Source: an uncultured Rickettsiales bacterium (GTDB lineage Bacteria; Pseudomonadota; Alphaproteobacteria; UBA8366). From it: DNA of 64,000 bases. Positions within the stretch are counted from its first letter, which is position 1; the number at the start of each line of letters is the position of its first letter. Position numbers and translations under genes: made by a program. The stretch spans positions 11,487 to 75,486 of the forward strand of contig CAJWTF010000003.1 in NCBI GenBank assembly GCA_913046825.1, given 5' to 3'. The notes under the pieces are model-generated. The model had not been told where the DNA came from and did not search any database. It saw only the letters and a list, made by a program, of their open reading frames with translations. This document shows, piece by piece, positions 31,969-34,922 of this stretch.

Positions 31969-32832
31969 ATGACCGAAGCGAAGACTATTGAGTTTGAATC
32001 CGCTGAAGGATTCCCGATCGCTGCTGATATCTACGGCGATCCGTCCAACGATCCGATATTGTTCATGCATGGCGGCGGCCAAACCCGGCATGCTTGGGGA
32101 GGTGCCGCGGCGGCGCTTGCCAAGCGGGGCTGGTACACGATCAGCATGGATCATCGCGGCCACGGCGACAGCGGCTGGTCGCCTTCCGCCAGCTATGAGT
32201 TGGACGACTTCACTGCTGACTTTCACGCGGTGCAGAAGCAAATCGGGCGCAAGGCGGTGGTTTGTGGCGCATCGCTTGGCGGGCGCACCGCGCTGATGGC
32301 GCTCGGCGAAGGATCGCAAGACCTGACCACGGCGTTGATCTTGGTTGATATCGCACCCAAGACCGAGGCCGCGGGAGTTGCGCGCATTCAGCAGTTCATG
32401 CGCGCTAATCTCGATGGGTTTGCAAATCTGGAAGAGGCGGCGGATGCGGTCTCGGCGTATCGCCATCACCGGTCCCGGCCAAAAGACGTCAGCGGGCTGA
32501 AGAAGAATTTGCGGCTGAAGGATGATGGGCGCTGGTATTGGCATTGGGACCCGAAATATCTTGATCGTAAGGACCGCAACGATCCGATGCATATTGACCG
32601 GGTTCGTATTGCCACACCCAACATCAAGGTGCCGACCTTGCTGATTCGAGGTGGTAGCAGCGATGTGGTCAGCCCGGAAGGGGTGCAGGATTTCCTCACG
32701 CTTCTGCCGACCGCACAATTCATCGATGTCGCCGATGCCGGGCATATGGTGGCGGGCGACAAGAACGACATTTTCACCGACGCGGTAGTCGACTTTCTCG
32801 GCCAGACCTTTGCGGAGCATGCGGCGGAGTGA
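31969..32832 (+). CDS. Alpha/beta hydrolase, first of a tandem pair
   Basis: A 287-residue alpha/beta hydrolase. Oxyanion motif F-M-H-G-G-G-Q-T-R-H, D-H-R-G-H-G-D-S-G-W, nucleophile elbow G-A-S-L-G-G (Ser) and D-A-G-H-M-V with the catalytic His are all present. A conserved middle stretch contains H-R-S-R-P-K-D-V-S-G-L-K-K-N-L-R. Its neighbour at 32832 is clearly the same family with these blocks unchanged, so the pair arose by tandem duplication. The stop overlaps the next start (TGATG). Likely an esterase or peroxidase-type hydrolase, substrate unknown. Confidence 0.9.
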   Translation: MTEAKTIEFESAEGFPIAADIYGDPSNDPILFMHGGGQTRHAWGGAAAALAKRGWYTISMDHRGHGDSGWSPSASYELDDFTADFHAVQKQIGRKAVVCGASLGGRTALMALGEGSQDLTTALILVDIAPKTEAAGVARIQQFMRANLDGFANLEEAADAVSAYRHHRSRPKDVSGLKKNLRLKDDGRWYWHWDPKYLDRKDRNDPMHIDRVRIATPNIKVPTLLIRGGSSDVVSPEGVQDFLTLLPTAQFIDVADAGHMVAGDKNDIFTDAVVDFLGQTFAEHAAE

Positions 32833-33677
32833 TGGAAGCGGAGACAATCAAATTCGAGGCGTCGGGCGGCGTCACTTTGATCGCCGACGCTTGGGGCGAT
32901 CCGGCGGCGGACCCAATCCTGTTTATGCATGGCGGTGGCCAAACCCGACATTCCTGGGGCGGTGCGGCCCGGCTTTTGGCGGAGAAAGGGTGGCGCACCC
33001 TCAGCATCGATTTGCGGGGGCACGGTGATAGCGGTTGGTCGGCGGCGGGCGATTACGAAGCGCACGACTTCGTCGCCGATATCAATGTCGTCTTGGCGAA
33101 GCTCGGACGTAAGGCCGTCCTCGTCGGCGCGTCGCTTGGCGGCCGAACTGCAACATTCGTCGTCGGCACCGGTGCGCCAGACCTCTGCCGTGGTTTGGTG
33201 TTGGTGGATATCACGCCGAAGATCGAGACCAAGGGGGTCGAGCGGATCCTTGCATTCATGAACAGAAATCCGGACGGGTTCGAGACCGTGGAAGATGCCG
33301 CGGACGCGGTCGCTGAATATCGCGAGCATCGCTCCCGCCCGAAGGACGTCAGTGGACTGAAGAAGAACCTGCGGATCGGCGAGAACGGCCGTTGGTTTTG
33401 GCATTGGGACCCGAAATTCCTCGACCGCCGCCACCCGCATGACGAAGTAGCATCGAAGGAAATCAGTGAGGCTGCGTCCCGGATCAAGATTCCAACTCTA
33501 TTGGTGCGTGGCGGGAGCAGCGATGTGGTAAGTCTGGAGAACGTTCAGGATTTCAAACGATTGGTCCCGCACGCCGAATTCGTCGACGTTGCCGAAGCCG
33601 GCCACATGGTTGCCGGAGACCGCAACGACGCGTTTACCGGCGGTGTGGTAGATTTCCTCGAGCGGAATTTCGGCTAG
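32832..33677 (+). CDS. Alpha/beta hydrolase, second of a tandem pair
   Basis: A 281-residue paralogue of the preceding protein. It keeps F-M-H-G-G-G-Q-T-R-H, L-R-G-H-G-D-S-G-W, V-G-A-S-L-G-G-R-T, the H-R-S-R-P-K-D-V-S-G-L-K-K-N-L-R block and E-A-G-H-M-V-A-G-D. More than half the residues look identical by eye. I start it at ATG 32832, overlapping the previous stop. GTG 32829 directly before it is the alternative. The catalytic triad appears complete in both copies, so neither looks degraded. Confidence 0.9.
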   Translation: MEAETIKFEASGGVTLIADAWGDPAADPILFMHGGGQTRHSWGGAARLLAEKGWRTLSIDLRGHGDSGWSAAGDYEAHDFVADINVVLAKLGRKAVLVGASLGGRTATFVVGTGAPDLCRGLVLVDITPKIETKGVERILAFMNRNPDGFETVEDAADAVAEYREHRSRPKDVSGLKKNLRIGENGRWFWHWDPKFLDRRHPHDEVASKEISEAASRIKIPTLLVRGGSSDVVSLENVQDFKRLVPHAEFVDVAEAGHMVAGDRNDAFTGGVVDFLERNFG

Positions 33678-33689
33678 GTTCGCTCGCTT

Positions 33690-33746
33690 TTCGACAAGCT
33701 CAGTATGAGGTCTTGCACGCAAACACCTCATACTGAGCCTATCGAA
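33690..33746. repeat. Palindromic intergenic repeat
   Basis: GCTCAGTATGAGGT (33698-33711) and ACCTCATACTGAGC (33725-33738) are perfect 14 bp inverted arms. The flanks TTCGACAA and TATCGAA extend the pairing with two mismatches. The element lies just after the tandem hydrolases and before the CULT gene. Its sequence differs from the two other palindrome types in the window. Confidence 0.75.
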
Positions 33747-33776
33747 GTATGACCCTCCGTTGCGTTATACCGCCGC

Positions 33777-34142
33777 ATGCTCAAAGACGCCGAAGACACG
33801 CTCATCGAAGACGACGTCACTGACGAAGAGGCGAGCGAAATCTATTGCGCTGCCTGTGGGCACCTCGTCACTCGGACGGATTGACGCCTGACATTCGATG
33901 GCGCGCACGAACACACCCTCTTTAATCCGTCCAGAATTTTGTTCCGGGTTCTTTGCCTGAAGGAAGTGCCGGGGGCCGACACGCCGGGGGAGGCCACAAC
34001 TGAATTCTCTTGGTTCAATGGCCATGCCTGGCGGATCGCGTTCTGTGGCGGGTGTGTCACGCATCTCGGTTGGCGCTTCGAGGGTACCGGTGTCTTCTTC
34101 GGTCTGGTGAAGCCGAAACTGACGATGAGAAAGCCTGGATAG
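33777..34142 (+). pseudogene. CULT-domain (cereblon-like) protein with one in-frame TGA
   Basis: A 121-codon frame matches the bacterial stand-alone CULT domain. Zinc-binding pairs are Cys24 and Cys27 (C-A-A-C) and Cys90 and Cys93 (C-G-G-C). H-E-H-T-L-F-N-P, F-S-W-F-N-G and H-L-G-W-R-F-E-G are family blocks. The three cage tryptophans fall at 79, 85 and 99, with the 6 and 14 residue spacing known from cereblon and MsCI4. Codon 36 (33882-33884) is TGA in T-R-T-D-stop-R-L, where the family usually has Trp. This is the only lesion, so decay is very recent, or it is a sequence error. The gene converges on msrA, with 7 bp between the stops. The natural ligand and role of CULT proteins in bacteria are unknown. 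Confidence 0.75.
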
Positions 34143-34149
34143 AGCGGCG

Positions 34150-34809
34150 CTACTCTGCCGCGACACCGATGCCCACGGGGCACGTCACGCCGGTGCCGCC
34201 GAGGCCGCAATAGCCGGACGGGTTCTTCGCCAAATACTGCTGGTGATAATCTTCAGCGTAGTAGTACTCCGGCGCGTCGAGGATTTCCGTCGTGATATCC
34301 GGGTGCCCGGCCTTGGCGAGTTCCGCTTGATAGGCGGCGCGGGATGCTTCGGCAGCAGCTTTTTGCGCGTCTGAATAGATGTAAATGCCCGAGCGATACT
34401 GCGTACCGATATCGTTGCCTTGGCGCATCCCTTGGGTCGGATTGTGGCCTTCCCAGAATTTTCCGAGCAAAGTTTGAAACGACACTTTCATCGGGTGATA
34501 GACAACCAGAACGACTTCGTTATGGCCGGTGCGGCCCGAACAGACTTCTTCGTAGGTCGGATTCGGCGTGATGCCGGCGGCGTAGCCGACCGATGTTGAG
34601 AAGACGCCTTCCGTTTGCCAGAAGATGCGTTCAGCGCCCCAGAAGCACCCGAGGCCGAAAATGACTTTCTCGGTGCCTTGCGGGAACGGGCCTTTCAGCG
34701 GGTTCCTGTTTAAGAAATGGCTCGCCGGCACCGGCATCTCGGCGCTACGTCCTGGCAGGGCCGTCTCGGTGGTTGGTAGTTCCAATTTTTTAGGCGATGT
34801 GAAAAACAT
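34150..34809 (-). CDS. msrA: Peptide-methionine (S)-S-oxide reductase
   Basis: A 219-residue MsrA that repairs oxidised methionine. [11 protein letters not shown] holds the catalytic Cys, G-H-N-E-V-V and [11 protein letters not shown] follow, and the C-terminal [13 protein letters not shown] provides resolving cysteines. The N-terminal 40 or so residues match the longer MsrA type. The start at ATG 34809 is followed by a natural M-F-F-T-S-P-K-K. An extension upstream is arginine- and proline-rich and is rejected. It diverges from the amine oxidase gene. Confidence 0.94.
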
Positions 34810-34922
34810 GATCGATATTCCCGTGCCTGCGTTTGCTGTCTGGTTGTATATTGGGGATAGGTGAGCCCATCGGCAAGGTTTTGCCGCGTTTGGCCATGTC
34901 ACATTTGCGGGAAGGAACGGAC

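Follow-up and report, generated by a model that had tools for sequence, protein, structure and literature searches.

A 64,000-nt stretch of DNA from an uncultured Rickettsiales bacterium (hereafter "the window") most probably carries a chromosomal gene, recently inactivated, that encoded a CULT protein of the single-domain MsCI4 type. The frame, at positions 33777-34142 of the forward strand, runs for 121 codons to a TAG stop at 34140-34142 and is interrupted by a single in-frame TGA; it contains no second internal stop and no frameshift. The gene is a pseudogene of the CULT family unless the TGA is read through or reflects a base error. Recent inactivation is supported by an intact homologue with TGG at the affected codon (locus L001), by evidence that this DNA uses TGA as a stop, by a pN/pS like that of the neighbouring msrA, and by an upstream side that differs from that of L001. 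The positions that an earlier note had assigned to the zinc cysteines (C24/C27, C90/C93), the cage tryptophans (W79, W85, W99) and the TGA at codon 36 hold (Table 1). The same note had counted only one lesion, which is true of the frame itself, but the upstream context is also unlike that of the intact homologue.

Table 1. The interrupted CULT gene, its parts and its immediate surroundings (positions in the window)
Feature	Position	Strand	Remarks
alpha/beta hydrolase gene	32829..33677	+	upstream; unlike the upstream neighbour in L001
palindromic repeat	33690..33746		25-nt arms, 88% complementary; between hydrolase and CULT genes
CULT-domain (MsCI4-type) gene remnant	33777..34142	+	121 codons before the stop, a single TGA among them
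first CxxC (C24, C27)	33846..33857	+	zinc pair
in-frame TGA	33882..33884	+	codon 36; aligned to TGG of L001
open frame remaining 3' of the TGA	33939..34142	+	TTG start, 67 aa
cage Trp W79	34011..34013	+	
cage Trp W85	34029..34031	+	
second CxxC (C90, C93)	34044..34055	+	zinc pair
cage Trp W99	34071..34073	+	
msrA (methionine sulfoxide reductase A)	34150..34860	-	convergent with CULT gene; syntenic in L001; provisional start codon

Protein searches used the frame with its TGA read as tryptophan. When compared with PDB sequences by phmmer, the frame matched MsCI4 of Magnetospirillum over residues 19-116 at E-values of 5e-28 to 1e-27 (1.2e-27 for PDB 4v2y), and chains named "Protein cereblon", mostly over residues 47-104, at 1e-9 to 4e-8. 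These matches, together with 71 homologues in a set of 5.8 billion proteins, show that the CULT similarity is not due to chance. No NCBIfam model reached its cut-off against the frame. An AlphaFold model of the read-through frame, built on a 44-row alignment (A1), has a mean pLDDT of 85.5, with residues 1-16 below 50, and displays the beta-tent fold of the CULT family; the best solved Foldseek matches of this predicted model are MsCI4 structures (4v2y: E 5e-11, TM 0.79/0.90, 44% identity). In A1, C24, C27, C93, W79, W85 and W99 are invariant and C90 is nearly so. The CULT identity and cage spacing proposed by the earlier note were thus borne out: the frame has two CxxC pairs, three cage tryptophans at spacings of 6 and 14, and similarity to solved CULT proteins. 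An uninterrupted frame, another family character, is lacking owing to the TGA at codon 36.

A tryptophan had also been expected at the site of the TGA, and the alignments agree. Tryptophan occupies position 36 in 37 of the 43 other rows of A1 and in all 15 relatives of the close clade that reach this position (P0051 and P0073 begin after it), and codon 36 of the intact, syntenic homologue in L001 is TGG. Neither a lack of CULT similarity nor a lack of tryptophan or of alignment around codon 36, both of which were looked for, was found. Of the 28 CULT genes that whole genomes yielded, just four have a tryptophan aligned here, which indicates that Trp36 is a feature of a subfamily and not part of the cage. 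Selenocysteine at codon 36 would fit poorly with the relatives, which have tryptophan, not cysteine, at the site.

The genome collection yielded a single relative, L001 (PAZH01000022.1, a Rhodospirillaceae MAG), whose uninterrupted CULT gene encodes a protein (P0007) 77% identical to the read-through frame. DNA similarity between the window and L001 extends from codon 1 of the CULT gene rightwards through msrA and the FAD amine oxidase, MmgE/PrpD, LeuC-like and LeuD-like genes; leftwards, it ends at the CULT start. The gene upstream in L001 encodes a QueE-like radical SAM protein (best NCBIfam E-value 1.3e-13, below cut-offs), and ends 4 nt short of the CULT ATG. In contrast, the window has no QueE-like gene, as judged from a tblastn search that returned no match to the L001 protein anywhere in it. 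Two adjacent alpha/beta hydrolase genes in the window (31969-33677) are 62% identical, an apparent tandem duplication. The repeat between the hydrolase and CULT genes belongs to a dispersed palindrome, since two related genomes, G001 and G005, contain 62 and 68 copies, respectively, of a slightly degenerate form of its half-site, and the reversed control does not occur at all; the half-site is absent from G004 and G007, which belong to the family of G001. As RNA, the palindrome is predicted to fold strongly (z -6.75). Around the CULT gene (33500-34300), a simple scan showed neither an intrinsic terminator nor a sigma-70-like promoter.

Two further ideas about the neighbourhood were discarded. 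A conserved partnership with msrA was rejected because, among 28 CULT loci, msrA adjoins the CULT gene solely in L010, which comes from the genome of L001, and lies about 7 kb away in L076. A phage or plasmid origin was rejected because, at the sensitivities used, no CULT match was found in phage or plasmid records and none was confirmed in viral contigs. Plasmid DNA matches to the window, where features were named, fall over the msrA and hydrolase stretches.

Comparison with L001 gave a pN/pS of 0.17 for the CULT gene, at 76% identity over 120 codons; because synonymous sites are near saturation, this value tells just of long past constraint. The same comparison gave 0.18 for msrA, 0.32 for the amine oxidase gene, 0.19 for MmgE, 0.09 for LeuC and 0.12 for LeuD. 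When the CULT gene is split at the TGA, pN/pS is 0.11 before it and 0.20 after it. Judging from these alignments, the gene was long under selection before the lesion arose.

Damage to CULT proteins is not confined to the window. In a tree of 41 rows from 73 proteins, the window falls in an 18-row clade (starred in the tree; support 99/97), where it groups with P0002 and P0015 at weak support (83/63). P0002 is the closest relative (89% identity, 55 member sequences) and is full length, with Trp36. Among the 17 relatives in the clade, eight lack, or are changed at, one or more of the seven residues that make up the zinc site and the cage. C90 is replaced by serine in P0009; C27 is replaced by glycine in P0030 and P0055, both short, and by tyrosine in P0071, which later runs out of frame. 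The last third of P0015 is out of frame, as read from the protein. W79 is replaced in P0051 (by leucine) and in P0073, both of which lack the N-terminal part, and P0021 is short. Contig ends may have cut P0021 and P0055. Throughout, the lesions of relatives were read from translated proteins, several of them on contigs shorter than 2.5 kb that may be cut or mis-sequenced. Outside the clade, damage was seen in one of 55 proteins (54 plus P0011), the short P0065; the difference from 8/17 gives a Fisher p of 1.6e-5, and setting aside P0021, P0055 and P0065, rows that are simply short, leaves 6/15 versus 0/54 (p 4e-5), although both p-values are too small because the rows are related.

The window departs from four of 33 otherwise conserved positions (G53R, F61L, A64V and I111V), P0002 from three, and P0003 to P0008 from none to two; P0010 and P0012 keep the seven key residues and each break six. 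I111V is common in the clade, G53R is common to the window, P0002 and P0012, and A64V to the window and P0015. Since G53R and A64V are both found in relatives, they do not date the TGA.

A control search with P0024, from another branch, returned 72 matches, 68 complete and four incomplete; three of the latter lack N-terminal sequence but keep those key residues that they still cover, and the fourth, P0120, is out of frame. The two lists overlap: 22 of the 72 matches, including P0005 of the window's clade, are also among the window's 71. On a like-for-like basis, excluding the query itself, damaged proteins at or above 58% identity number 7/17 for the window query and 4/39 for P0024 (p 0.012, with a cut-off set after the lists were known); at a 60% cut-off, the numbers are 7/17 and 1/22 (p 0.013). 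The clade's excess of damage therefore shrinks but remains under this control, and part of it reflects how readily fragments close to the query are detected. The damaged rows sit on several branches, which, if the lesions are real, makes several separate loss events likely. The gene may be fading in the window's branch, where some relatives have an intact copy and others an apparently damaged one. The stronger proposal, that CULT was lost repeatedly and independently in one alphaproteobacterial clade, by nonsense, frameshift, zinc-cysteine and cage-tryptophan changes, and stayed intact in the other genomes examined, is possible but doubtful. If it were true, bacterial CULT proteins would look like condition-dependent readers of a ligand or of damage, whose benefit is lost in a particular niche, and comparing clade genomes that keep a working copy with those that do not could lead to the natural partner or ligand.

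CULT genes were found in one of 11 genomes of the family of L001, in seven of 43 of its order, in at least four of 385 sampled from its class and in at least 21 of 398 sampled from its phylum; in the last two samples, at most 11 candidates per genome were scored, so misses are possible. In one other class, that of G454, 20 of 48 genomes have the gene. All 28 distinct CULT genomes keep the seven key residues and have no internal stop. The earlier note had called described bacterial CULT proteins few, which is fair for those in print. In databases they are not rare, as shown by the 71 and 72 homologues from the two queries and by the class of G454, and some records are named "cereblon family protein". 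One member of the family of L001, G007, encodes an MmgE/PrpD protein (G007:C74:1036-2406, L028) 81% identical to that of the window, compared with 77% for G001. No CULT match was found in G007, whose contig ends 1,035 bases before the MmgE/PrpD gene and whose genome may be incomplete.

The earlier note had left three options for the TGA: a very recent death of the gene, read-through and an assembly error. Recent inactivation is favored. An assembly or sequencing error, which would leave the gene intact and functional in the organism, comes next and is unlikely. The lesion is a single one of substitution type in a frame long under purifying selection, the closest relative is full length with Trp36, and the 28 genome copies elsewhere are intact; one wrong base in a living gene would give almost the same picture. 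However, the five neighbours aligned to L001 are free of stops and frameshifts, the upstream context is altered as well, and damage seems to recur in the clade, with the caveats of short contigs and protein-level reading given above. Read-through by a near-cognate tRNA-Trp, yielding a functional amount of full-length protein, is more improbable still. Among bacterial stops UGA is the leakiest, and the residue usually inserted by leak-through is tryptophan, the very one that relatives have at codon 36. The low pN/pS, both before and after the stop, is likewise consistent with read-through, but would be expected for any recent lesion. Moreover, none of the 71 homologues reaching the site shares the stop, with the proviso that proteins cut there would be too short to find, and the window contains no Rfam RNA family at gathering scores.

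The presence of TGA at a tryptophan position could also mean that the organism reads TGA as tryptophan. Two neighbouring genes argue otherwise: the FAD amine oxidase gene ends in TGA in the window and in TAA in L001, and the LeuC-like gene ends in TGA in the window and in TAG in L001, each at the same C-terminal end. Furthermore, at 23 positions where L001 has tryptophan in msrA and the FAD amine oxidase, MmgE/PrpD, LeuC-like and LeuD-like genes, the codon in the window is TGG in 22 cases, CGG in one and TGA in none. From these two observations, TGA is a stop here, and reassignment of the code was rejected as far as the 64-kb window shows; we give it almost no credence. We place no weight, as proof of the code, on a count over 13 genes of the window (63 TGG, no in-frame TGA, six genes with a terminal TGA), since most of the frames derive from an ORF list in which TGA was a stop from the outset. 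It is very improbable, finally, that the 3' fragment is a new short functional protein. Two stretches are still open, 35 codons before the TGA and 67 codons from the TTG at 33939, and the latter keeps C90/C93 and the three cage tryptophans. P0051, a 67-residue gene call from another metagenome, begins at the same residue, but has leucine at W79. The fragment lacks C24/C27 and the first strands of the sheet, and only three proteins matched its product. With the first CxxC missing, it should not form the zinc site.

Under recent inactivation, the course of events can be outlined conditionally. By analogy with its family, the ancestral protein would have bound small cyclic-imide or ureide-like ligands in a tri-Trp cage on a zinc-pinned beta-tent. 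Constraint on the gene may then have been relaxed or lost in the window's lineage, perhaps with the change of upstream neighbour. The nonsense change at codon 36 would end the product after residue 35, past the first CxxC; neither fragment should build both zinc site and cage, and the gene would be effectively null, apart from a trace of normal protein from possible low UGA leak-through. Related lineages apparently damaged CULT by other lesions, and its function thus seems dispensable or useful only under some conditions in the clade.

The titles and abstract openings listed by literature searches name no role for bacterial CULT proteins and mention no decayed copies. MsCI4 binds uracil and uridine (PMC4287342), and in eukaryotic cells the ligands bound by cereblon include C-terminal cyclic imides (PMC13001092); in excerpts, PMC4287342 and PMC4449219 discuss ligands and do not give a bacterial role. 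Gene neighbours offer modest leads. At four of the 28 loci (L077, L078, L082 and L090), a BatD-type gene, assigned by a Pfam match tested for L078, lies directly upstream of CULT on the same strand (the four BatD-type genes are 44-81% identical), accompanied upstream, also on the same strand, by a VWA/TPR gene. At four others (L081, L085, L089 and L093), a rhodanese-type gene, with Pfam tested for L081 and L085, lies directly downstream on the same strand (the four rhodanese-type genes are 73-82% identical). Together with msrA in the window and L001, these neighbours weakly suggest redox or protein-damage biology. Recurring CULT neighbours in other genomes are the first pathway candidates. A protein joining 2Fe-2S and guanylate/adenylate cyclase domains is encoded beside the CULT gene of G169 (L096:1963-3675).

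The CULT family is already known, and the broken gene of the window is ordinary gene decay and a modest evolutionary clue, not a new kind of system. A clade with intact and broken copies would nonetheless give a natural loss-of-function series for a protein whose relative MsCI4 serves widely in crystallography as a substitute for cereblon (the 4v2y sequence is shared by 47 PDB entries). MsCI4 (MGR_0879, Magnetospirillum gryphiswaldense; 4v2y) is likewise a single-domain bacterial CULT protein with two CxxC pairs, the 6/14 tryptophan spacing and the same predicted fold; the window's gene differs in its interruption at codon 36. W79, W85 and a conserved Y83 are named in MsCI4 (PMC4449219), whereas residue 83 of the window is histidine, as it is in P0002, P0003, P0006, P0007, P0008 and P0010. 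Gly53, nearly invariant in A1, is arginine in the window. The Yippee-Mis18 domain (PF03226), whose beta-tent fold is related to CULT (PMC4287342), matches residues 74-104 weakly, at 16.8 bits, below the Pfam gathering cut-off of 26.6. The thalidomide-binding domain of animal cereblon is homologous, with the cage conserved (E 2.7e-8 over residues 47-104 for 4tz4, the human protein; PMC4287342). Unlike animal cereblon, to which identity is about 25% in structural matches, the window's gene has neither a LON domain nor an E3 ligase context.
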